Shown here: in pieces, positions 6,517 through 59,916 of the stretch
How positions within the stretch are numbered: position 1 is the stretch's first letter
Layout of the letters: every line of letters begins with the position of its first letter
Source of the DNA: an uncultured Ignavibacteriota bacterium
GTDB taxonomy: Bacteria; Bacteroidota; Ignavibacteria; UBA10030; UBA8401
Assembly (NCBI GenBank): GCA_903861125.1
Contig: CAIOTF010000042.1
Coordinates: 186,001 to 250,000 of the forward strand
Length of the DNA: 64,000 nucleotides
Direction of reading: 5' to 3'
Made by a program: the position numbers and the translations under genes
Notes under the pieces: model-generated
The model's input: only the letters and a program-made list of their open reading frames with translations
Databases searched by the model: none
Told to the model about the DNA's origin: nothing

Positions 6517-8357
6517 ATTGCATCACCCCTCAATCTGCGGATCCGTATCCGTGCTTCTTCGACAAAGAGAGAAAACGGATATTTTTCGAGGATCACTTCG
6601 TATGATGCTATCGCCTTCTGCTTATCCATAATCTGGAACTGATACAGTTCACCGATCTTGAAATAGGTTCTATCCTTTTCGATGCTCTCTTTATACTCTT
6701 CCAGTAATTTTTGATAAGCCGCAAGAGCCTCCGGATACCTCTTCAGACGGATCGAATATTCTGCCATCTTCAGCAAAACATCATCCGCCAGTGGCGCCGT
6801 TGGATAAATGTCGATGATCGAAGAGAATTCATTCTCCGACTCGCTGAGTTTACCCTGGCGGGCGAGCAGCTCCGCATGGGAAAACTGTTTGAGTGCTTCC
6901 GGAAACTGGAGCCTGCTTTCAGTAACAAAATATTGCAGGAGCAGTGCATCGTTCGATTCGTCCGCTTTCAGATTTTCGGTGAGCGGTTTCAGAATGGAGA
7001 GAGTGCTGTCAAAATTACATTTGAAAAACTGGACCTCTGCAAGACGGAATTGTGCGAATGTCCTCCGGTCCTGATCGGCATACGGCGACACACTCATCAT
7101 TTGGAATTTCTTAGCCGCTGCATCCAGTTTGTTCTGTGCAATATAAATATCTCCGGTCGTTGACAGCACCTCCGGCACCAATGGACCAGTCGGCGCAACG
7201 GTCAGCACCGAATCGAATATTTGAAGTGCACCGTCAAGATCGAACATCTGTTTGTAACGGATCCAGCCGATGCGGTAGAGAGAGTTGCCACCGATGTTCG
7301 AAAATGGAAATTCCTTTGCGATGGCCGCAAAAAGATTGACTGCACCGGAAAAACTGGGACGGGTCTCAAGCGTGGAGATATTCTTCTCTTCCATCTCCGT
7401 GAATTGCTGTCCGCGCAGACTCAATTCTTCGATGCATCGTGCATAGCCGTATCGAGCGGCGGGAACGAATTGCATCTTCGGCCCTCTCATCAACGCTTGT
7501 TGATATGCCGCCGCCGCTGTAGTGAACTCATTCTCACGGAAGACCCGTTCTGCGAAAGCAAATAATTCCTGTCCTTGTGAATTCACCAGTTGTTCCAACT
7601 TTTGAGCAACGGTCAGAGCTTCGGCATAATGACTTCCCTCCATTAAAAGCCACATCTGCAGACGCATTACCGGTATCGTCTGATGTACTAACAATTCTTC
7701 TTCAACAACTGTGGTGGCTGCTTTCAGTCCTTCCGGGCGGTCAGCAACCGCTGCAAGGCGCGACTGCACAAAATCATACTGCTGCTCGTTCTGGTTCAGA
7801 AGCCGTAAATATTCGCGCGTCATATCCCCGTAGTTCATCATGAATGAATAGAGATATCCGAGTTCGTTCGCAAAAACAAATAGATCGCCGATCTCCTTCC
7901 TTCCGCGAAGGTACGTGGAAACCGCTTTGTCGAACAGACGCAGATTAGCCTGTTCGTTCGCTACCGCACGGTAATACATCTGGTTCCTGTTCGCAATCGT
8001 AAGGATCGTGTTCCATACAGAGTCCGCCTTATGCTCCTTCCCTGCCATGGAATACAGTGTGCCGATGTTTGCTTGAAGACTGAAATCGAACGGCTGCGCG
8101 CGGAAGCGCCGGGTGCTGAGTTGTATGGCTTCATCATAGCGCTTAAGTTGGACCTGCATTCGCCGCAGCGCGTCGAAATACACCGTGTTATTTGTATCTG
8201 CTCTGAAAAGGTCGGAGTACATTTGATGTGCACGTTCAAAATCGCTTTGTTGTTCGAACGCCTGTGCAAGGCGGAACATGTTCTGGCTTTGGTCCTGCTG
8301 TGAGAAGAGGAACCCTGCCAAGGAGACAATGCTTACTATGGTGTAGAATAACTTCAT
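6513..8357 (-). CDS. Exported tetratricopeptide-repeat protein
   Basis: 614 aa with an N-terminal signal peptide (MKLFYTIVSIVSLAGFLFSQ). Most of the length is TPR units, for example around residues 30-60 (FERAHQMYSDLFRADTNN) and the C-terminal set (YPEALAAYQKLLEEY; KQKAIASYEVILEKYPFS). TPR arrays hold partner proteins; the C-terminal part resembles YbgF/BamD-type outer-membrane assembly TPRs, but no lipobox is seen. First gene of the operon with the MmcQ-type and deacetylase genes, with a predicted promoter just upstream. Exact function unknown. Confidence 0.8.
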   Translation of the reverse strand: MKLFYTIVSIVSLAGFLFSQQDQSQNMFRLAQAFEQQSDFERAHQMYSDLFRADTNNTVYFDALRRMQVQLKRYDEAIQLSTRRFRAQPFDFSLQANIGTLYSMAGKEHKADSVWNTILTIANRNQMYYRAVANEQANLRLFDKAVSTYLRGRKEIGDLFVFANELGYLYSFMMNYGDMTREYLRLLNQNEQQYDFVQSRLAAVADRPEGLKAATTVVEEELLVHQTIPVMRLQMWLLMEGSHYAEALTVAQKLEQLVNSQGQELFAFAERVFRENEFTTAAAAYQQALMRGPKMQFVPAARYGYARCIEELSLRGQQFTEMEEKNISTLETRPSFSGAVNLFAAIAKEFPFSNIGGNSLYRIGWIRYKQMFDLDGALQIFDSVLTVAPTGPLVPEVLSTTGDIYIAQNKLDAAAKKFQMMSVSPYADQDRRTFAQFRLAEVQFFKCNFDSTLSILKPLTENLKADESNDALLLQYFVTESRLQFPEALKQFSHAELLARQGKLSESENEFSSIIDIYPTAPLADDVLLKMAEYSIRLKRYPEALAAYQKLLEEYKESIEKDRTYFKIGELYQFQIMDKQKAIASYEVILEKYPFSLFVEEARIRIRRLRGDAI

Positions 8358-49669: not shown

Positions 49670-50571
49670 AAAAGTTCCCTCATCGCCCGCAGCTGCTGAT
49701 GCTTTTCCGTAAGGGAGAATTTTGTACTGTGCGATGCTATTTTCTGGGCATATGTCGCTGCGTCGATATAATTCTTCTTCTTTAAATAAAAATAGAGGAA
49801 CGAAACTCCAAAGATGTCGCCGGAACCGATCGTTGAAACAGGTTCATTATTTTTTTCAAATGCAATCTCGGTTGTGAGCAGCACCTTATGTTCTTCCTGG
49901 TACATTGTTGCGCCATTCTCTCCCCGTGTAATAACAAATGCTTTCACCATCAGCGGAAGCATATGCTTTGCCAGAAGTTCGTTGTTTAACTGTTCAATGG
50001 ATAATTCGGACGCTTCTTCCTCATTCATCTGCACACTGTCCGTCATAAAGCACCAGCGCCGCCAGTCCGCCATCGGTTTTCGTACACGGGTTCCGTCTTC
50101 GTTCACCGACAGCGTCAGGCAATGCATATCCAAATGCAGCGGAATTTTCTTTCCGCGGATCTCCAACCGTATCTCGTCGAGGGTATCGACGGTGATATCA
50201 TTTCCCGAGATCATATTGACATAGACTGCATCGACATTCAGGAATTTTTTGATATGCGAAAAAGGAATCGGTTTTGAGACCTTCACCGAACATTCATTCG
50301 GACTGTCATCGAAATAATGAACGGTATTCGATTCTTCCGAAAATTGAAATATTCCTGCAGGATCAATATTCTTATATTGCGAAAGAAGTGACCGCACTTC
50401 CTTGTATTCCGTTTCACCCACGCCGAAAACAGGATAGACCGTATCACGGTCCGATGCAAGATTTGCCAATGCCGCCGCGGAATGGAATATCCCTCCGAAT
50501 TTCTTTTCTTCGGTTCCATCAGCGCGATGGAAGACATCCATACAAAAATGTCCGATAACAGTTAACTTCAT
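49666..50571 (-). CDS. PfkB-family carbohydrate kinase
   Basis: 301 aa. N-terminal glycine site [12 protein letters not shown] and the PfkB end-signature [19 protein letters not shown] (about 249-267), in which GSGD replaces the usual GAGD; Asp is the catalytic base. The family phosphorylates sugars or nucleosides with ATP. No signal peptide. It overlaps hisI and the RmlD-like gene by 4 bp each, so it is translated with both. The substrate is unknown; a link to nucleotide-sugar supply is suggested by the neighbour. Confidence 0.82.
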
Positions 50572-50972
50572 TTTTTATAGACCGCCTTTGGATCGAACAT
50601 GATATCATTTTTTTCAATATATGCGTTCCCACCTTCGGCTACTTCACGGAAGAAACAGCTGCGGTGTCCGGTATGGCATGCCGCTTCCCCTATTTGATTT
50701 ACTCTGAGAAGTATGACGTCGGCATCGCAATCGATATGTATCGAAAGAACTTCCTGCACATTCCCTGATTCTTCACCTTTGCGCCACAATTTACTGCGCG
50801 ACCGGCTGTAATACACGGCGCGTTTTGTTCTTACCGTTTCTTCTAAACTTTCCCGATTCATCCACGCCATCATAAGAATATCGCCGGTCTTTTCATCCTG
50901 CGCTATTGCCGGAATAAGGCCGTTTGAATCGTATTTCACATCGTCGAGAAGTTTCATATTCATCAGTTCCAT
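50568..50972 (-). CDS. hisI: Phosphoribosyl-AMP cyclohydrolase
   Basis: 134 aa, a stand-alone cyclohydrolase without the HisE half. The metal-site motif [15 protein letters not shown] (about 88-102) and [16 protein letters not shown] (about 105-120) are diagnostic. It opens the purine ring of PR-AMP in histidine synthesis. The start ATG at 50972 lies 28 bases after the hisF stop; internal ATGs at residues 4 and 6 are alternatives. Confidence 0.95.
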
Positions 50973-51000
50973 TTCGAAGTCGGCTTCGCTTTCTTCGGCA

Positions 51001-51759
51001 TTACGTTCTTACTAAAATATTTTTTGATCGTAAAAATTCTTTTGCTTGTGCAATGGTGAACTGCCGGAAGTGAAAGATCGACGCCGCAAGCACAGCATCA
51101 ACATCCGCTTGTGCAAACGCCTGATATAAATGATCAAGATTTCCGGCTCCGCCGCTCGCGATGACAGGTATTCTCACAGCGCCAGTTACCCTCTTCAGCA
51201 GTTCTATATCGTATCCATCTTTTGTTCCGTCGCGATCCATGCTCGTCAGCATAATTTCACCTGCGCCACGCTGTTCGCATTGCTGCGCCCATTCTATCAC
51301 GTCAAGTTCAGTTTTCGTCCGTCCGCCGTGGATGAATACTTTCCAATTATCATTCACATCCCTTTTTGCATCGATGGCTACAACGATGCACTGCACTCCG
51401 AACTTCTCCGCCCCGTCGCTGATCAGCTGCGGGTTTGTTACCGATGCCGTATTGATGCTCACTTTATCCGCACCGCTCCGGAGCATTTCGCGCATATCAT
51501 CCGTTGTCCGGATACCGCCCCCGATCGTGAACGGAATAGAGACCTCTTCCGCAGTATTCCTCACAATATCCAGCATCGTTGACCGGTTATCCGATGATGC
51601 AGTGATATCAAGAAAGATCAGTTCATCGGCACCTTCGCTGTCGTAAAATTTTGCCTGAACAACGGGATCGCCCGCATCAACAAGTTCAATAAAGTTCGTC
51701 CCTTTTACGACGCGGCCTTTATCCACATCCAAACAAGGAATAATTCGTTTCGCTAACAC
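51001..51759 (-). CDS. hisF: Imidazole glycerol phosphate synthase cyclase subunit
   Basis: I take the GTG at 51759 as the start ([20 protein letters not shown]), giving 252 aa, the usual length; the longer frame starts with TTG at 51807 and adds 16 residues unlike the family. The half-barrel repeat is clear: [12 protein letters not shown] at the start and [18 protein letters not shown] in the middle, ending with [17 protein letters not shown]. With HisH it makes IGP and AICAR from PRFAR. Preceded by hisA with a short gap. Confidence 0.95.
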
Positions 51760-51810
51760 AGAGTATGTTTTTCCATTCGTTCGCTTCGCCGGGAATCGCC
51801 GGTTCAATTA

Positions 51811-52575
51811 CTATATTCTTCTTGTCGGACCCATATCATCTAAAACTTTTTCATTTTCACGCCATAACGCCTGACAGGAAAAGCGGTTTTCATACAACGC
51901 TTTCCCTATGATGACGGAATCAACACCAAACTTCTCGAGTTCCTGAAGTTTTATTAGATCGTTATAATCCGAAACTCCGCCGGATGCGGTGATTTTCAAG
52001 CCGGTACGCTGTGCCATAATCCGGATGGCTTCAAAATTCGGACCGGACAGCATTCCGTCTCTGGTAATATCGGTGTAGACAATCCGTGCAACGCCGAGTG
52101 ATTTCATGTTGAGTGCCAGAGAGACTGCTTCAATGCCTGTGTTCTCAAGCCAGCCTTTGGTCATAACAACGCCGTTTTTTGCATCGATGCCGACCACAAT
52201 CTTGCGTGCACCAAAATCCTTCACGCACCGTGAGACAAGTTCCGGATCGTCGATCGCCGATGTTCCAATGACGACACGATAAACGCCGATCTCGAACAAC
52301 TGTTTTACCTGTTCATACGTTCTGATCCCGCCGCCAATCTGGATCGGAATATCAACCGCCTTCATCATTCGTCGCAGAACATCAAGATTCCTCATCTCCC
52401 CTTCAAAAGCGCCGTCAAGGTCCACAACGTGGAGGGTTTTAGAATTCTCGCCTCGCCAGAGAATTGCCATCTGCACCGGATCATCCGAATAGATTTTTTC
52501 CGTCCCCTTTGCGCCTTGCACAAGCCGGACGCAGCGTCCGTCTTTGATATCGATAGCCGGTAATATAAGTAACAT
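51811..52575 (-). CDS. hisA: Phosphoribosylformimino-5-aminoimidazole carboxamide ribotide isomerase
   Basis: 254 aa TIM barrel. LLILPAIDIKDGRCVRLVQG at the start (Asp general base), IQIGGGIRTYEQVKQLF (about 93-109) and the mirror half VYTDITRDGMLSGPNFEAI (about 170-188) with ITASGGVSDYNDL. It opens the ProFAR ribose ring. The start ATG shares a base with the hisH stop (TAATG), so they are coupled. Confidence 0.96.
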   Translation of the reverse strand: MLLILPAIDIKDGRCVRLVQGAKGTEKIYSDDPVQMAILWRGENSKTLHVVDLDGAFEGEMRNLDVLRRMMKAVDIPIQIGGGIRTYEQVKQLFEIGVYRVVIGTSAIDDPELVSRCVKDFGARKIVVGIDAKNGVVMTKGWLENTGIEAVSLALNMKSLGVARIVYTDITRDGMLSGPNFEAIRIMAQRTGLKITASGGVSDYNDLIKLQELEKFGVDSVIIGKALYENRFSCQALWRENEKVLDDMGPTRRI

Positions 52576-53171
52576 TATAGCTCTGAGAAATTTTTCAATA
52601 GTTGCAGTCCGGTTGCTTGACTTTTTTCCGGATGGAATTGGATACCGTAAATATTTTTTTGCTGAATAATCGACGGGAACCGATTCCCATACTCCGTCCT
52701 GCTCAATGTCACATTCTCTTTCGGCTCAACAAAATATGAATGAACAAAATAGACAAAACTTTTTTCCTGCACATTTTTCAGTATCGGCGACTGCTGCACA
52801 ATCTCAATCTGGTTCCATCCCATATGTGGCACCTTGACGGAACCAGGGAACAGTTTCACTTCACCGCTGACAAGACCTAGACCCTCGTATTCCCCAAGTT
52901 CATAACTTTTTGTAAAGAGCAGCTGCATTCCAAGACAAATTCCAAGCAGCGGACGACCGGCAATTGCATGATTCATCAGCATTTCATGCAGACCAAGCGT
53001 TCGTATATTTTCCATTGCCTGACCGAATGCCCCGACTCCCGGAAGAACAAGCCTTTCCGCTTTTTGAAGTTCGCTCGCCGTGTCAGAGACGAACGACTGC
53101 ACACCGACTTTTTCGAACGCTTTTTGAACGGAACGAAGGTTGTTCAAATGATAATCTATTATTCCAATCAT
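52575..53171 (-). CDS. hisH: Imidazole glycerol phosphate synthase glutamine amidotransferase subunit
   Basis: 198 aa class I amidotransferase: nucleophile Cys in PLLGICLGMQLLF (about 74-86), VPHMGWNQIE (about 114-123) and the His/Glu pair GIQFHPEKSQATGLQLL (about 175-191). It feeds ammonia to HisF. About 76 bases separate it from hisB, in which I see nothing besides AT-rich sequence. Confidence 0.96.
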   Translation of the reverse strand: MIGIIDYHLNNLRSVQKAFEKVGVQSFVSDTASELQKAERLVLPGVGAFGQAMENIRTLGLHEMLMNHAIAGRPLLGICLGMQLLFTKSYELGEYEGLGLVSGEVKLFPGSVKVPHMGWNQIEIVQQSPILKNVQEKSFVYFVHSYFVEPKENVTLSRTEYGNRFPSIIQQKNIYGIQFHPEKSQATGLQLLKNFSEL

Positions 53172-53247
53172 ACGTTTACAGCGACAGGTCTCTCATGACA
53201 CGTGCCTATTCATCTTTTTCCCGGAGATTGTTCGCAGCAGCATGCGG

Positions 53248-53832
53248 CTATAATTTCCCCTTCGTAGAAAGGACTCCCTTTACCCGCGGATCAATTTCGC
53301 ACGCTTGACGCATTGCACGGGCGAATGATTTGAAGATCGCTTCTATCTTATGATGCGTATTCCTTCCATAAAGAACTTCAATGTGAATATTCGCTTTCAC
53401 ATTTTCCGCAAACGAGTGGAAGAAATGCTCAATCATTTCCGTGGACAGGTCACCGACTTTTTTTCTGTTGAATTCTGCTTTGAACACAAGTGCAGAGCGT
53501 CCGCTGAGATCGATCACACACCGTGCAAGCGATTCGTCCATAGGAACATAGGCCGTTCCGTAACGGGCTATCCCTTTTTTCTCCCCCAGCGCTTCGGTAA
53601 ACGCCTTGGCAAGCGCGATTCCAACATCTTCCGTCGTATGATGGTCATCAACATGCAGATCGCCTTTACACGAAACAACAATATCGAACAGACCATGCTT
53701 TGCAAAAAGATCGAGCATATGATCAAGAAATCCGATTCCTGTTGAAATGGAAGCTTTTCCGCTCCCGTTCAGTTCAACCGAAACGGAAATGTTTGTTTCT
53801 TTGGTTTTTCGTTTGAGTATGGCTTTGCGCAT
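53248..53832 (-). CDS. hisB: Imidazoleglycerol-phosphate dehydratase
   Basis: 194 aa, the single-function form without the phosphatase domain of enterobacterial HisB. Manganese-site motifs: GIGFLDHMLDLFAKHG (about 33-48), DLHVDDHHTTEDVGIALAKA (about 58-77) and, near the end, HIEVLYGRNTHHKIEAIFKS. It dehydrates IGP to imidazoleacetol phosphate. First gene of hisB-H-A-F-I; hisG, D, C and E are not in the window. Its ATG is immediately preceded by the T-run of a hairpin. Confidence 0.96.
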   Translation of the reverse strand: MRKAILKRKTKETNISVSVELNGSGKASISTGIGFLDHMLDLFAKHGLFDIVVSCKGDLHVDDHHTTEDVGIALAKAFTEALGEKKGIARYGTAYVPMDESLARCVIDLSGRSALVFKAEFNRKKVGDLSTEMIEHFFHSFAENVKANIHIEVLYGRNTHHKIEAIFKSFARAMRQACEIDPRVKGVLSTKGKL

Positions 53833-54600: not shown

Positions 54601-54966
54601 TTATTCTATAATGTGGTATTTCTTTAGAACATCTGCGATGACCGTTTGTGAAATCGGTTTCGGCAGAAATTCATCGGCTCCGCATGAATCAACAATTTTT
54701 TTTATATCCTCTGTATTAGTCAGTGCAGACATAAGGATGGCGGTAAAATTTGGCGTGATTAATTTCATCTGCTTGATTGCATCAGAGCCGTTTTTCCTTG
54801 GCATTATCTGATCAATAAAGACAATATCCGGAGTCAGGGATGCAAATTTATGTACAGCCTCGTCACCGTCTTCGGCATAATCAACCGCAAGACCAAATTT
54901 TTCAACAATCGCACCAATCACTATCCGATTTGCTTCAGCATCATCAACAACAAGGGCTTTTTTCAT
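54601..54966 (-). CDS. Single-domain response regulator (third receiver of the ATPase operon)
   Basis: 121 aa from the ATG at 54966 (MKKALVVDDAEANR); a frame starting at 54996 adds 10 residues with no support. Receiver residues complete: D8-D9, phospho-acceptor D52 (DIVFIDQIMPRKNG), S80 and K103. It closely resembles the receiver at 59491 (both MKKAL-VDD, F-PDIVF-D-IMP-K-G, INPNF/ITPNF, LKKY at the end), so it is a third copy in the same operon, after the second ATPase (71 bases). Single receivers act by docking. Confidence 0.9.
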   Translation of the reverse strand: MKKALVVDDAEANRIVIGAIVEKFGLAVDYAEDGDEAVHKFASLTPDIVFIDQIMPRKNGSDAIKQMKLITPNFTAILMSALTNTEDIKKIVDSCGADEFLPKPISQTVIADVLKKYHIIE

Positions 54967-55037
54967 TTGCAATGTTTTTTTCAGCAATAGGTTCATTCAA
55001 AATATTATTTTGAAGGATCGTCAATGTTCTGATATGT

Positions 55038-56732
55038 TTAACCAAGAACGCGCAGATACTCTTCCAACGAAATGATGCCCGACACAAGTTTTTTTGCAGC
55101 ATCAAATCGTATAGACTCAAAGCCTTTTTTCGTGGCAGTCTCTTTCACTTTTATCGGTGACGTTTGATTGAAGATCATATCCTTCAATTCTTCGTCTACA
55201 ACTAACACCTCATGAATTGCAGTTCTGCCTAAATGTCCGTCGCCGCCGCACATATCACATCCGCGGCCCCGGTAGAGAACAATTGAATCTTCAAGTTGAC
55301 TCAGTCCGGAGGCAACAAGCATATGTTTTTTCGGTTTATAACTTTCGCGGCAGTGTTTACAGATTTTTCGTACAAGTTGCTGATAAATGATTCCGTTCAA
55401 TGTTGGTGCAAGCCAGGATGGCGGTATGCCGAAATTCGTCATCCGCGGAATGCACGAAAGTGCATCGTTAGAAAGAATGGTGCTGACAACCATAGTTCCG
55501 GTAAGCGCAGCTTCTGCCGCAGCGGCTCCTGCTTCGGCATCGCGGATCTCACCAAGAAAGATTAAGTCCGGATGCTGTCGCAATACTGCCCGCATCGCAG
55601 AGGCATAATCTAGTTTTTGTTCCACGTCCACCTGAACTTGACTCGCAAACTCCAGCCGATACTCTATCGGATTTTCTACCGTAATAATATTTTTTTGAGA
55701 ATCACGTAATTCGTTCATACAGCCGTAGACCGTGGTTGTTTTACCACCCACCGAAGGCCCCGCTATCATCAACAAGCCCCGGGGCCGGTGAAGCAGATAA
55801 CGCACAAGTGCCAGGTTTTCAAATGAAAATCCCAGATCTGTGATATTGACAACACGGTTGGATTTTTTTAAGATCCGGACAGAGAACCGTTCCCCTTCAA
55901 CAGTCGGCAGTGTGCTGACCCGCATGTCAAATGAAAATTTTCCGTAGATCGAAGCATATCGCCCGTCCTGCGCCTTCTTTTTATCGAACATATTCAAACT
56001 GCCGCGAGAGCGCATCACATTACACAATGCTTCAGTCATTTCTTTAGGAAGCGAAACAGCATATTCCAATACGCTGTCAATATTATACCGAACACGAAAC
56101 TCCTGCTCCATCGGTTCAAAATAGATATCGGTCGCACCGTCTTTGATAGCCCTGATAATAATCTCATCGATCAGAACATCGGCATTGGGTATTCTTCCGG
56201 ACCTGTATAATTCATACACTTTTTCTTTTCCGCGCTTGCGCATATCCAACGTCTCAAGCTGGAATTTTGACGGCAGTTGTTGGAATTCATCAATATCTTC
56301 CACCGGCTCTTTCATCACTACCGCATCGAAAGCGGACCGCTTCACGGCAACAGGTATAATGAATACTTGAGCATCACGTCTCATCGACTCGATTGTCTCT
56401 TTGTAAGGAGGATCAGTGAATGCAACGGTCAATTCCACACCGCTCCGTATGATCGGCACGGCATTATATTTTTCAACAAATTCGTCCTTAAAAATCTGAT
56501 TGTTAACGGTCACAATGGAAGGCGTCAGATTGACAAAAGGAATCTTAAATTCTTCCGATATTGTTGAGGCAACAATTTCTTCATTCACTCCAAGAGCATC
56601 AATGAGCACTTCGGAACATTTTTTTTGTTCCACTTCGCCCATGATCCGATGGAATTTATCGAATTTGGTCTTGTCGACATATCCTTTGGAGAACAGGATT
56701 TTTATAATTCGTACGTCTTCGTCCCTGATCAT
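55038..56732 (-). CDS. Degenerate GspE/PilB-type secretion ATPase (second copy)
   Basis: 564 aa, collinear with the ATPase at 57456 to about residue 460 without a gap. N-terminal GspE/MshE-like domain (about 5-145), then N2 and RecA-like domains. Changes from the active copy: H204 of the SDIHVEP box is Y (TDIYFEP), R217 is N, G220 is S, G328 in Walker A is V (GPSVGGKT, still with K331 and T332), and the His-box H420 is L (STILSND instead of STLHTND). Walker B GEIRD (394-398) and the four-Cys zinc site (C458, C461, C492, C495) remain. ATP may bind but hydrolysis is doubtful. Possibly a regulatory partner in a mixed ring. Confidence 0.87.
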   Translation of the reverse strand: MIRDEDVRIIKILFSKGYVDKTKFDKFHRIMGEVEQKKCSEVLIDALGVNEEIVASTISEEFKIPFVNLTPSIVTVNNQIFKDEFVEKYNAVPIIRSGVELTVAFTDPPYKETIESMRRDAQVFIIPVAVKRSAFDAVVMKEPVEDIDEFQQLPSKFQLETLDMRKRGKEKVYELYRSGRIPNADVLIDEIIIRAIKDGATDIYFEPMEQEFRVRYNIDSVLEYAVSLPKEMTEALCNVMRSRGSLNMFDKKKAQDGRYASIYGKFSFDMRVSTLPTVEGERFSVRILKKSNRVVNITDLGFSFENLALVRYLLHRPRGLLMIAGPSVGGKTTTVYGCMNELRDSQKNIITVENPIEYRLEFASQVQVDVEQKLDYASAMRAVLRQHPDLIFLGEIRDAEAGAAAAEAALTGTMVVSTILSNDALSCIPRMTNFGIPPSWLAPTLNGIIYQQLVRKICKHCRESYKPKKHMLVASGLSQLEDSIVLYRGRGCDMCGGDGHLGRTAIHEVLVVDEELKDMIFNQTSPIKVKETATKKGFESIRFDAAKKLVSGIISLEEYLRVLG

Positions 56733-56736
56733 CTTG

Positions 56737-57057
56737 TTATTCGAATAATTTATCTATATCGTTTTGTGTTGCAGCGTTTGCAGAATGTTCAGACGTTGAA
56801 TGGATCTGCTGAACTTCTATGATACGCATCAGTTCCTGTTCGGTAAATTGCGGTACCGTATGGATGTTCGATTCCAACCTCTGTATACGAGAGATCCCTG
56901 TCGTTTTTATCAATTGTTTTCCGCATGACCCGCAGAATGAGTCCATCAGTGAATTTAAAAATCCGCACCGACATCGGACCACATTCAGTTTGGCTCCGCA
57001 ATTGAGACATTCCTGCGATGCCCGGGGACTGTCACTGCCGCAAGAAGAACAGATCAC
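56737..57057 (-). CDS. Double zinc-ribbon protein with C-terminal receiver-docking-like peptide (second copy)
   Basis: 106 aa. Four cysteine pairs: C3/C6, C17/C20, C29/C31 (spaced by one residue, unlike the usual CxxC) and C42/C45, so two zinc ribbons are expected. A helical linker follows (about 60-88). The last ten residues TQNDIDKLFE match the end of the first copy (TQADLDKLFE) and resemble the FliM CheY-binding peptide LSQAEIDALL. Overlaps the receiver gene upstream by 4 bp and precedes the ATPase by 4 bases. No family name known; an adaptor role between receiver and ATPase is my inference. Confidence 0.72.
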   Translation of the reverse strand: MICSSCGSDSPRASQECLNCGAKLNVVRCRCGFLNSLMDSFCGSCGKQLIKTTGISRIQRLESNIHTVPQFTEQELMRIIEVQQIHSTSEHSANAATQNDIDKLFE

Positions 57058-57443
57058 GACAATTCTCCTTCAATGTTCAATAGTTTTTTCATTACATCAA
57101 CAATCCTGGATGGCAGATATGGTTTAATAAGGTAGTAACTTGCCCCTTTGGTCTTCGCTTCCTGGACAGATTCTATGTTTGAAACAGCTGAGACGATGAC
57201 AACAATAGCATCCGGTTTCACATTCCGGATCTCACGCAGCACATCCATGCCGGACATTTTCGGAAGCATATTATCAAGAAATGTGATCGTCGGTTTATCC
57301 TGCGTATACCGTAACAATCCTTCCGCACCGTCGGCAGCATAATGGACCTTTTTGATCCCCATTTTTTTCAATGTCATGGCAAACAATGTCCGGATATGAT
57401 CAGAGTCATCAACAACGAGAACGGAGATATCTTCAATCTTCAT
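57054..57443 (-). CDS. Single-domain response regulator (second receiver of the ATPase operon)
   Basis: 129 aa; D12-D13, phospho-acceptor D57 (TFLDNMLPKMSG), S85 and K107 (LIKPYLPSR) are all present. It overlaps the zinc-ribbon gene by 4 bp and follows the first ATPase gene by 12 bases. The sequence is more diverged from the other two receivers of the operon than they are from each other. Confidence 0.9.
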   Translation of the reverse strand: MKIEDISVLVVDDSDHIRTLFAMTLKKMGIKKVHYAADGAEGLLRYTQDKPTITFLDNMLPKMSGMDVLREIRNVKPDAIVVIVSAVSNIESVQEAKTKGASYYLIKPYLPSRIVDVMKKLLNIEGELS

Positions 57444-57455
57444 AATGCAGATTCG

Positions 57456-59159
57456 TTATAAAGTAGAACGCGTAACACGTTGGATCTCTTCCAACGTTGT
57501 AAGGCCGGCCACAACTTTTTTCATTCCGTCAAAACGCAGATCACGGAAACCATTTTTCAATGCCGCCTCACGTATTTTTGTTGTTGTTTCGTTTTTATAG
57601 ATCAAGGTTTGTATCTCTTCGTTCACGAAAAAAACTTCATGAATTGCTATCCGGCCGCTGTACCCCTGATAGTTACATTTTTTACAACCTATACCTCTAA
57701 AAAACGGCACTCTGCCCGATAAACCGCTGAGGCTGGCTTTATACAGAACTTCTTCGGATGGTTCATATTCATCTTTACAGAAATCGCAAACTTTTCTCAC
57801 CAAACGCTGTCCAAGAACTCCGATTAACGCAGGGGCCAGCCAATACGAAGGAACTCCCATATTGATCAAACGCGGAATTGCACCAACGGCATCGTTCGTG
57901 TGCAAGGTACTTAATACAAGGTGACCGGTAAGCGCTGCCTCCGTTGCAATGATACCTGTCTCTGAATCACGTATCTCACCAACAAGTGCAACATCCGGAT
58001 CCTGACGAAGAATTGCACGCAGGGCGGTCGCAAAAGTTAAGTCGCGGTCGGGATCAACATTGACCTGATTAATTGTATCAACCTGATACTCCACCGGATT
58101 TTCAACGGTAACAATATTTTTCTCAACCGATTTGATATGATTGATCGCCGCGTAAAGCGTAGTGCTTTTTCCGCTCCCCGTCGGTCCGGTAACAAGGAAT
58201 AGACCGTTCGGTTGGTTCAGCAAATGCTCAAGCATTGCCATGTTATGATTTGCCATCCCCAGTTCGGTGATCTTTTTGTTGATGGAACTTTTGTTGAGAA
58301 TACGAAGAACAATCTTCTCGCCCCCCACGGTCGGCAGCGAATTGACACGCAGATCGAACGAACGGGATTCAAGCGTTAGTGATATGCGGCCGTCTTGAGG
58401 TTTTTTCTTTTCAAAAATATCCATTGCCGCTTTGTTCTTGATAACGGCAGCAACACCTTCGGATATTTTTTTGGGAAATGATGCCACGCGCTGCAGCACG
58501 CCGTCTAGCCGGTACCGAAGTCGCAGTTCATCTTCAAACGGCTCAACGTGGATATCGCTTGCTCCGATCTTGACGGCTCGCAGGAAGATCTCGTCTACCA
58601 GTTCAATGAGTGGTGGAAATTCACCCATCTTTTCCAAACGCTCAACTTCTTTTTCCCCCGTCCGGACAACATCATACTTTTCAATATCGATAGCGCTAGC
58701 TATCCGTTTCAACTCGTCAAATCCCCCCTGCTGAATCTTGAGTGTTTCGTCAAAATCGTTCACACCCGCAACGACCGGAATGATTTTCTTTTGGGTCAGT
58801 CTGGCAAGTTCATCCACAACTTCTTTATACGGAGGGTCGGTGACCGCAACGGTCAGTTCATTCCCAAACAGAAACATTGGAATAACACGGTGCTTACGGA
58901 TAAATGAGATCGATACGATCTCTTTCGGCGCTGAATTCGTTTCGGCATATAACTTCATAACGGGAAGATTGAACGCTTTACCGAAATGGTGAACCAATTC
59001 GTCCGCGGAAAAGTAATTAAACTGTATCAACGCGCGGGCAATTCCGTCATTCATGCCGTAATTATTGGCGGTGTCGGCGAACTGCTTCCAACGCTCTTCC
59101 GTCAGCACATTATTGGCAAGACAATAATCACGAAATATGATATCTTCACGTGCAAACAT
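57456..59159 (-). CDS. GspE/PilB-type secretion or pilus assembly ATPase (active copy)
   Basis: 567 aa. N-terminal GspE/MshE-like domain (about 5-145; I do not see the conserved c-di-GMP-binding Arg/Leu pattern of MshEN), N2 domain with SDIHVEP (201-207) and LRYRLDG (R217), RecA core with Walker A GPTGSGKS (325-332, K331), Asp box TVENPVEY, Walker B GEIRD (394-398) and His box STLHTND (H420); zinc site C458, C461, C492, C495. All residues for a hexameric ATPase are there. The family drives type II secretion or type IV pilus assembly. No pilC, pilin or secretin gene is adjacent; instead a receiver and zinc-ribbon gene precede it with almost no gap. Confidence 0.93.
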   Translation of the reverse strand: MFAREDIIFRDYCLANNVLTEERWKQFADTANNYGMNDGIARALIQFNYFSADELVHHFGKAFNLPVMKLYAETNSAPKEIVSISFIRKHRVIPMFLFGNELTVAVTDPPYKEVVDELARLTQKKIIPVVAGVNDFDETLKIQQGGFDELKRIASAIDIEKYDVVRTGEKEVERLEKMGEFPPLIELVDEIFLRAVKIGASDIHVEPFEDELRLRYRLDGVLQRVASFPKKISEGVAAVIKNKAAMDIFEKKKPQDGRISLTLESRSFDLRVNSLPTVGGEKIVLRILNKSSINKKITELGMANHNMAMLEHLLNQPNGLFLVTGPTGSGKSTTLYAAINHIKSVEKNIVTVENPVEYQVDTINQVNVDPDRDLTFATALRAILRQDPDVALVGEIRDSETGIIATEAALTGHLVLSTLHTNDAVGAIPRLINMGVPSYWLAPALIGVLGQRLVRKVCDFCKDEYEPSEEVLYKASLSGLSGRVPFFRGIGCKKCNYQGYSGRIAIHEVFFVNEEIQTLIYKNETTTKIREAALKNGFRDLRFDGMKKVVAGLTTLEEIQRVTRSTL

Positions 59160-59161
59160 AA

Positions 59162-59494
59162 TTATTCAAAAAGTTTATCAAGATCTGCTTGAGTAAGAGT
59201 TTGAACATCTTTCTTGGCAACAAGACGCTCGCCTTCTTCCAGTAATTCAGTGATGTCGTTCTCGTTGTATTGAGGGATGTTCATCGTGCGCAGTTGTTTC
59301 CCTTCATTGATCATTGCTGCTATAACGGTCGGTATCGGTATTCCACATTTACCGCAGCGCCGATAGACCAGAGGATTTCCGTGATTGCACGAAGAACACT
59401 TCCAACCCATTTCCGTTCCGCAATCCGTACACTCGAACGGAGGGTCGTAATATTTTTTATTGCACGTCGGACAGGCGTAATTAGGGATCGTCAT
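59162..59494 (-). CDS. Double zinc-ribbon protein with C-terminal receiver-docking-like peptide (first copy)
   Basis: 110 aa. Cysteines C8/C11, C22/C25, C33/C36 and C47/C50 form four CxxC pairs, giving two zinc ribbons; a helix-forming tail (about 60-90, with an ENDITELLEEGERL stretch) leads to TQADLDKLFE at 101-110. That end resembles the FliM N-terminal peptide (LSQAEIDALL) bound by phosphorylated CheY. It overlaps the upstream receiver gene by 4 bp, and the ATPase gene begins 2 bases after its stop. Role inferred, not known: bridge between receiver and ATPase. Confidence 0.72.
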   Translation of the reverse strand: MTIPNYACPTCNKKYYDPPFECTDCGTEMGWKCSSCNHGNPLVYRRCGKCGIPIPTVIAAMINEGKQLRTMNIPQYNENDITELLEEGERLVAKKDVQTLTQADLDKLFE

Positions 59495-59856
59495 TCTGTC
59501 GTAAGGTTATATTTTTTTAGCACTTCATAAATTTTTTCTGCTTCATATGGCTTTAAGATGTATGCATTCGCTCCCGCGGCCTTCGCTTCCTGAACATCTT
59601 CCGATGCCGAGATGGATGTAAGCATAACCCCGATAAAATTAGGATTAATTTTTTTCATTTCAGTCAGTGCTTCCACTCCGGATTTTTTAGGCATAATGTA
59701 GTCTAAAAAAACAATGTCCGGCTGAAACATTGTAAATTTTTGCACCCCCTCATCACCGTTCTCTGCCAATTCTATTGCCAGGCCTTTTTTTCTAAGAATG
59801 GCGTTCAAGAGTGTTCGATTGTACGCTGAGTCGTCAACAATAAGGGCTTTTTTCAT
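59491..59856 (-). CDS. Single-domain response regulator (first receiver of the ATPase operon)
   Basis: 121 aa with D8-D9, phospho-acceptor D52 (VFLDYIMPKKSG), T80 and K102. First gene of the seven-gene run; a predicted promoter sits 32 bases upstream. It overlaps the first zinc-ribbon gene by 4 bp. The kinase that would phosphorylate it is not adjacent; the orphan histidine kinase at 25996 is one candidate. Confidence 0.92.
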   Translation of the reverse strand: MKKALIVDDSAYNRTLLNAILRKKGLAIELAENGDEGVQKFTMFQPDIVFLDYIMPKKSGVEALTEMKKINPNFIGVMLTSISASEDVQEAKAAGANAYILKPYEAEKIYEVLKKYNLTTE

Positions 59857-59887
59857 CTCTCAAGATTTTAAGTTCATGTGTGTCTAG

Positions 59888-59916
59888 ATAGTATGAATAA
59901 TTGGATTCCGATGCAA
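59888..59916 (-). promoter_or_regulatory. Predicted promoter of the receiver/zinc-ribbon/ATPase operon
   Basis: Minus strand TTGCAT, 17 bp, TACTAT. No other promoter-like box or terminator was seen inside the seven-gene run. Confidence 0.5.

Follow-up and report, generated by a model that had tools for sequence, protein, structure and literature searches.

How two PilB-type motor ATPases come to be encoded between receiver and zinc-ribbon genes, and which machine they might serve, are the questions raised by a seven-gene locus of an uncultured Ignavibacteriota bacterium. The locus lies on the minus strand of a 64,000-nucleotide stretch, hereafter called the window (G000:C42:186001-250000), in a genome of 4.19 Mb in 54 contigs. 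In the order R1-Z1-A1-R2-Z2-A2-R3 it encodes CheY-like single-domain receivers (R), double zinc-ribbon proteins (Z) and PilB/GspE-family ATPases (A), with gaps of -4, 2, 12, -4, 4 and 71 bases and thus a 4-base overlap of R1 and Z1. Open reading frame (ORF) calls and Pfam matches bear out this order and the tight spacing, both already noted in a preliminary description of the DNA, which took the seven genes for one system. The conserved element is smaller: R, Z and A form an inherited three-gene unit that is conserved in a group of uncultured Bacteroidota. It is a conserved system, but its basic form is a three-gene cassette, doubled in the window's family of loci (f1), with R3 as an accessory. 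We consider it somewhat more probable than not that this is a signalling cassette, in which Z serves as an adaptor between a phosphorylated CheY-like R and its dedicated PilB-type motor, which would drive a pilus whose genes lie elsewhere.

A conserved three-gene unit

A search with Z1 found relatives in 22 of 80 genomes; with a 19-row alignment of Z as query, 35 of the 98 genomes of the order gave matches (E 1e-8). Four of these 35 (G067, G474, G079 and G060) yielded partial, ribbon-only matches with no adjacent R or A, which leaves 48 Z genes in 35 loci (window included) of 31 genomes. All but one of the 48 were also found with the alignment, the remaining one (G018:C68, locus L059) with the Z1 query. 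Seven rows below 55 bits were left out, as was one antisense frame (L049:9692-9868, 65 bits), which is taken as an artefact of a local profile built with over-extended frames from L058 and L059.

A scripted tally placed R at most 60 bases upstream of Z in 44 of 48 cases and A at most 150 bases downstream, likewise in 44. At L047, L058 and L059 the exceptions are due to over-extended or over-long frames, and R and A are present there; L132 and L134 lie at contig ends and retain A as a fragment only (in L132 392 bases away); and for L063 R is not judgeable because the contig begins at Z. After correction, R lies upstream in all 47 judgeable cases and A downstream of all 48 Z, twice as a contig-end fragment only. 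The preliminary description had left it to a survey of relatives whether the gene order is kept or the ribbons also occur beside unrelated genes: R-Z-A recurs at the 35 loci, and none of the 48 Z stands without R and A where the contig permits a judgement.

Two other explanations of these matches were considered and rejected. Z is no generic zinc ribbon, as none of five loci with ribbon similarity only (L131, L140, L141, L142 and L143) has R or A (phmmer, E 1e-3). A fusion of the three genes was suggested by the long frames of L058 and L059, which we take for over-extended ORF calls.

Outside f1 each locus holds a single triad; G070 and G471 have two triad loci of one kind each, and G041 two of different kinds. 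Doubling is the rule within f1 wherever the contig leaves room for it, but G009, G015 and the second G018 locus have single triads and G013 a tripled one. At doubled loci the first triad best matches R1, Z1 and A1 and the second R2, Z2 and A2; therefore the unit was, to judge from these similarities, probably duplicated as a whole. Many of the genomes are split into dozens or even hundreds of contigs, and not all are complete, so absences are soft throughout.

The zinc-ribbon protein and its C-terminal tail

The strongest clue to the mechanism is the C-terminal end of Z, a FliM-like tail that the preliminary description had overlooked, together with a lost histidine in A2 (see below). The double zinc ribbon of Z2 (56737..57057, minus strand, as are all genes of the locus) scores 29.3 bits against PF12773 DZR, over the cut-off of 27.3 bits, and that of Z1 (59162..59494) 21.4 bits, under it. 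Across the 19 aligned Z sequences seven ribbon cysteines are invariant, and the position of the eighth ligand is, by eye, C or H. The tails, identified by motif and profile, read LTQADLDKLFE in Z1 (59165..59197), where a low-confidence model predicts a helix that we propose as the receiver-docking element, and ATQNDIDKLFE in Z2 (56740..56772).

This tail is near-constant, typically [ST]Q-x-[DE]-[ILV]-D-x-L-F, and occurs in all 48 Z, in 47 as called and in the last (L066) beyond an in-frame TAG. The pattern was found at the end of none of 1231 other ORFs (of at least 80 residues, from six-frame calls and not all of them genes) and three times anywhere in their 244,485 residues. A profile built from 40 distinct tails was run against 90 annotated E. 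coli K-12 proteins from two regions of 45 kb each that surround flagellar and chemotaxis genes (24,084 peptide windows; cut, very short and insertion sequence genes excluded). FliM, with LSQAEIDALL, ranked first (17.6 bits), and the C-terminus of CheZ, ASQDQVDDLL, fifth (9.3 bits). The C-terminus of CheZ binds CheY. At the sequence level the Z tails are EIDALL-like and thus resemble the CheY-docking peptide of FliM; passages on the FliM peptide describe it as the docking site of phosphorylated CheY, where it sits in the groove between alpha4 and alpha5 (PMC9126983, PMC6946799). Searches against PDB chains returned one chance match (E 1.6) for the Z1 tail stretch, and zinc-ribbon, other cysteine-rich or chance matches for the Z profile.

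In the triad genomes FliM itself starts with LSQQEID[NS]LL (nine of ten) or LSQQDIDNLL (one of ten), and the Z tail of L052, LSQQEIDSLF, comes close to the former. The tail might thus dock the CheY of flagellar chemotaxis and pass chemotaxis signals to the pilus motor, as could be imagined for the window's own genome, which carries a FliM with LSQQEIDNLL, nearly the same peptide as the Z tails, among its flagellar genes. However, FliM was found (E 1e-5) in only 10 of the 31 triad genomes (9 of the 25 well-complete ones) and not in the other 21 (16 of 25), where the tail is kept all the same; therefore the tail is not there for flagella. Z moreover adjoins a receiver of its own, and we regard a role for the chemotaxis CheY as quite improbable.

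Three Z copies with a single ribbon (the third copy in L056, L059 and L129) retain the tail, so what stays constant in the protein is the tail rather than the pair of ribbons. This bears on another possibility, suggested by the clustered cysteines of the zinc ribbons, namely that they sense zinc or the redox state and gate the motor, with the receiver as a second, independent input. The single-ribbon copies speak against such a sensor, and we give this explanation very little credence.

Receivers and kinases

The receivers of both triads, R1 (59491..59856; PF00072, 2e-24) and R2 (57054..57443; 1.9e-23), and the third receiver R3 (54601..54966, with a longer start at 54996; 5.4e-20) have PF00072 as sole Pfam family over cut-off, and no PATAN domain was found on these proteins of 121–131 residues. 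R1 keeps the residues of the phosphorylation site, as do the triad receivers in general: D12 is present in 47 of 47, D13 in 46 of 47 (one Y), D57 in all 46 that are readable (one row is partly masked), and T/S87 and K109 in 47 of 47. By these residues the triad receivers are predicted to be phosphorylation-competent.

Their family-specific trait is a basic residue at the position aligned to CheY Ala99, for which all 47 triad receivers have K or R (K in R1) vs. 5 of 34 other receivers of the same loci, two of the latter having a gap there. Position 99 lies in alpha4, on the FliM-binding face, and a basic residue at this site would suit the acidic tail of Z. The same observation helps to judge a rival arrangement, in which the tail binds the ATPase and the receiver acts directly on the ATPase or on another target. 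There is a precedent in PixE, whose receiver protein is reported, in passages of PMC9090330 and PMC7690835, to bind PilB1. Since the Z tail resembles two CheY-binding peptides and the basic residue is on the matching face of R, we hold this arrangement, modelled on PixE, to be unlikely.

R3 is an accessory, looser part of the locus. It has no basic residue at position 99, follows A2 at the widest spacing in the operon (71 bases), and occurs at variable positions in 6 genomes of the genus.

Candidate sources of phosphoryl groups are linked to the triads in the form of histidine kinase genes, which lie at most 3 kb away at 15 of the 35 loci (a hand count; several flanks are short). All 15 are among the 19 loci that differ in type from the window's, namely L053 of f1 together with the loci of f2, f3 and f6. 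The kinases of L053, L066, L130 and L135 were confirmed by Pfam and the others by similarity to these four. At four f2 loci a receiver-kinase gene lies upstream in the same direction, and six f6 loci have a divergently oriented PAS-kinase gene.

The ATPases

A1 (57456..59159; PF00437, 1.1e-125) and A2 (55038..56732; 8.8e-94) both exceed the curated cut-off of the type II/IV secretion ATPase superfamily. Neither reaches an equivalog cut-off: A1 scores 543.7 bits for PilB (TIGR02538, cut-off 675.65) and 526.6 bits for GspE (TIGR02533, cut-off 630.25), A2 403.7 and 381 bits, respectively, and the closest solved chains of A1 are GspE and PilB. A1 has an intact Walker A, Walker B, His box and tetracysteine, and A2 belongs to a clade without the His-box histidine (VSTILSND in A2). 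This histidine is present in 24 of 24 A1-type and none of 20 A2-type proteins, the Walker A lysine in 24 of 24 vs. 19 of 20 and the catalytic glutamate of Walker B in 24 of 24 vs. 18 of 20, respectively; the four cysteines are found in all 44. Going by these residues, A1 would be a fully conserved motor and A2 is probably a regulatory or partner subunit.

The N-terminal domain of both is weakly MshEN-like (PF05157, cut-off 23.1 bits; A1 43.3, A2 25.0 bits). A relaxed form of the MshEN motif for cyclic di-GMP (c-di-GMP), comprising 24 residues (RLGxx...) and taken from a passage of PMC5013675, is absent from all 24 A1-type and all 20 A2-type proteins; among 22 other ATPases, ten have one copy and none has two.

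A quick IQ-TREE phylogeny of 65 rows comprised the 44 triad ATPases, 18 other ATPases of the order (B17 and B39 of the window's genome and 16 from relatives, not each of them checked for a pilC neighbour) and three references. The triad ATPases fall on one side of a branch, apart from the other ATPases and the references (SH-aLRT support 99.8), and the A2 type on one side of another (support 100). Two rows had been left out, L168 and L164 (branch length 8.6, taken as a wrong frame). With both included the deep forks were open: ten A1-type rows separated from the rest of the triad rows, and L168 fell beside the A2 type; the program issued long-branch warnings for both trees. L168 itself (L168:1363-2643, G050), whose branch next to the A2 type is a long one, is a stand-alone ATPase of 426 residues, and no R or Z is apparent among the frames of the 4 kb of sequence covered there.

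The link to pili

The triads of the window lack a pilC/gspF gene in the same locus, as a standard pilus or secretion locus would have. The preliminary description had noted that pilC is missing nearby and might be sought elsewhere in the genome, and both points proved well taken: the window contains none, and the PilC matches of the genome (E 0.001) are confined to contigs C17 and C39, where at two loci pilC is followed by a gene for a PilB-type ATPase. Also encoded at the C39 locus are three MGQQQ-type pilins, minor pilin-like proteins, a PilT-like ATPase and a secretin. Among the matches listed, PilC occurs on a triad contig in G061 only, 31 kb off.

Four triad loci are genetically linked to pilins: in G005, G018, G070 and G471 pilin genes homologous to those of C39 adjoin the triads, with best E-values to the C39 pilins of 1e-26 to 3e-10 in a seven-sequence comparison. 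Strong pilin matches in the 31 genomes number 91 (18 weaker ones, with E above 1e-19, were dropped). At least 37 of them have a listed pilC no more than 4 kb away and 4 have Z no more than 3 kb away, the other 50 being elsewhere. Among the 54 pilins not near pilC, 0.098 would be expected near Z by chance where 4 were seen; G070 and G471 belong to the same genus, therefore the cases count as three independent ones, and the probability of three or more is 1.4e-4. The idea of a phosphorylation-controlled motor that acts on a distant machine has thus held up as far as conservation and phosphorylation-competent receivers are concerned, and a pilus machine encoded elsewhere is probable in view of the C17 and C39 loci and the pilins at four relatives.

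Motility pili, secretion systems and DNA-uptake machines share a common motor–platform design. The cassette might accordingly drive a secretion or DNA-uptake machine with pseudopilins instead of a motility pilus, which would be compatible with the adaptor mechanism. A1 is equally close to GspE and PilB, and one of the C39 pilins weakly matches ComP (E 0.0011, below the cut-off); the data presented here do not tell pilus, secretion and DNA uptake apart. We see this as a real possibility, though the less probable one.

Several features of the C39 locus merit mention in their own right. Its MGQQQ pilins (L015:7081-8434) have a short leader and, if cleaved after G, no glutamate at +5. Two of their genes (L015:7081-7494 and 7542-7955) are tandem copies that are 98.5% identical, with the third at about 61%, and precede pilC-pilB. 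No A24 prepilin peptidase scored over the cut-off in this genome, which is rated 100% complete (best match 12.4 bits), and given this result and the leader, pilin maturation may be unusual here. The PilT-like ATPase of the pilus operon (L015:14461-15732, 423 residues) has Walker motifs and matches PF00437 from profile position 124 only. Further pilins of the genome are encoded on C15, C16 and C50.

Proposed mechanism

We propose that R, as a CheY-like receiver, accepts a phosphoryl group from a histidine kinase and would then dock with its alpha4-beta5-alpha5 face on the C-terminal helix of Z, a mimic of the FliM N-terminal peptide. Z, sitting on the hexameric ATPase A via its ribbons and middle helix, would alter the way in which A engages PilC, the platform of a pilus machine encoded elsewhere, or decide whether it engages at all. 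In the doubled f1 cassette A1 might act as the motor and A2 as a regulatory or partner subunit. A bolder version, which we offer as speculation and think rather doubtful, is a two-input gearbox for one pilus, with A1 and A2 forming a mixed motor or alternating on one PilC and each gated by its own phosphorylated R via its own Z. If it were correct, CheY-style switching would have been set up anew on a linear pilus motor, independently of flagella and c-di-GMP.

A number of observations weigh against the adaptor mechanism. PilC is encoded in 27 of the 31 triad genomes and in 58 of 67 genomes without a triad, and therefore its co-occurrence with the triads proves nothing; the pilin link concerns 4 of 35 loci in 3 genera, and the window is not among these. 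In the E. coli set, peptides of FliG, AspS and MepM rank above CheZ, though below FliM. In a wider set (531 ORFs, 175,337 peptide windows) two true Z came first, followed by a sequence from the interior of a histidine kinase (18.2 bits), which outscored FliM, and CheZ was in 13th place. The two predicted structures of Z alone are poor (mean predicted local distance difference test, pLDDT, of 48.4 and 62.2), the better one having helices at residues 78-98 and 102-108, of which the latter is the tail. At the 16 remaining f1 loci, window included, the triads have no kinase gene within 3 kb (several flanks being short). Finally, phosphorylation, the binding of R to Z and of Z to A, the action on PilC, the direction of the effect and any phenotype are inferred from sequence and gene order.

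Comparison with known systems

CheY-like control of a pilus motor has been reported in cyanobacteria (PMC9090330, PMC7690835). According to passages of these papers, the PATAN-REC protein PixE of Synechocystis is a CheY-like protein that acts on the PilB1 motor, as we suggest for R; however, PixE carries PATAN on its receiver and is reported to bind PilB1, whereas R-Z-A combines a bare receiver, a separate FliM-tailed zinc-ribbon protein and a dedicated ATPase in one operon. With FliM and CheZ, Z has in common the LSQxEIDxLL-type peptide, the FliM site described for docking of phosphorylated CheY (passages of PMC9126983 and PMC6946799), but in Z this peptide stands at the C-terminal end of a zinc-ribbon protein that is linked to a pilus-type ATPase, in genomes most of which yielded no FliM match. 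By analogy, R-Z-A would thus be similar to CheY-FliM at the docking step and to PixE-PilB1 at the level of the target, while belonging to neither family.

The motor of the archaellum is related to type IV pili. Its adaptor CheF, as described in part of PMC9126983, mediates between phosphorylated CheY and this motor; it differs in its PH domains and in docking on ArlCDE, and a general Pfam scan of the seven proteins gave no CheF match, no comparison directed at CheF having been made. Cytosolic effectors that set PilB activity are also known from PilZ-FimX-PilB (discussed in passages of PMC11656802), yet none of the seven proteins has a Pfam match to PilZ, GGDEF or EAL, and the MshEN-like domain lacks the c-di-GMP motif. 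TackOD1 (arCOG06883) is a double-zinc-ribbon-like domain encountered in thaumarchaeal pilus loci and in REC-TackOD1 proteins (passages of PMC5847659 and PMC4858521). Unlike Z it has about 200 residues and 11 cysteines and is often fused to REC, and its Pfam family matched neither Z1 nor Z2 at E up to 1.

The R-Z-A cassette is not described among the matches listed in the open-licence literature, and the passages at hand of a 2024 review of PilB cofactors (PMC11656802), which treat c-di-GMP, PilZ/FimX, CpiA and phage peptides, name no zinc-ribbon adaptor. The cassette looks like an undescribed route by which signals control a pilus motor, and provides a self-contained three-gene candidate for receiver–PilB coupling, for which a docking peptide can be named and a contact face predicted. 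If the adaptor mechanism is correct, a FliM-type CheY-docking peptide is in use outside flagella.

Distribution

Besides the 98 genomes of the order, Z was searched for in 395 sampled genomes of the phylum and in plasmids. Strong full-length matches (>80 bits) in the phylum sample came from four genomes, all of this order, and matches outside the order stayed below 48 bits and were mostly ribbon-only (at most 12 first-pass candidates scored per genome, so that some may be missed). In G114, G355 and G146 the alignment covers most of the Z model at weak scores. Three of 72,556 plasmid records match part of Z1 (41-43% coverage). A wider distribution of Z is possible. The A1 ATPase family is common, with at least 5000 matching plasmid records (42.5% identity for the best-ranked); A1 as query, used here in place of Z, found no match in viral contigs and, among genome contigs, five close relatives in metagenome-assembled genomes labelled Bacteroidetes, Bacteroidota or uncultured Ignavibacteriae.

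Genomic context in the window

The seven genes are flanked by an alpha/beta hydrolase gene upstream and a methyladenine glycosylase gene downstream (Pfam), and nothing ties either to the R-Z-A system. The single promoter predicted earlier for the operon was not confirmed, as the scan returned 17 promoter-like sites vs. 10.9 (standard deviation 3.2) in shuffled sequence; one promoter-like pair (60018-59990) lies between R1 and a terminator-like hairpin 3' of the upstream gene. Further downstream (50568-53832) the window contains histidine biosynthesis-like genes in a row, as judged from their ORF translations.

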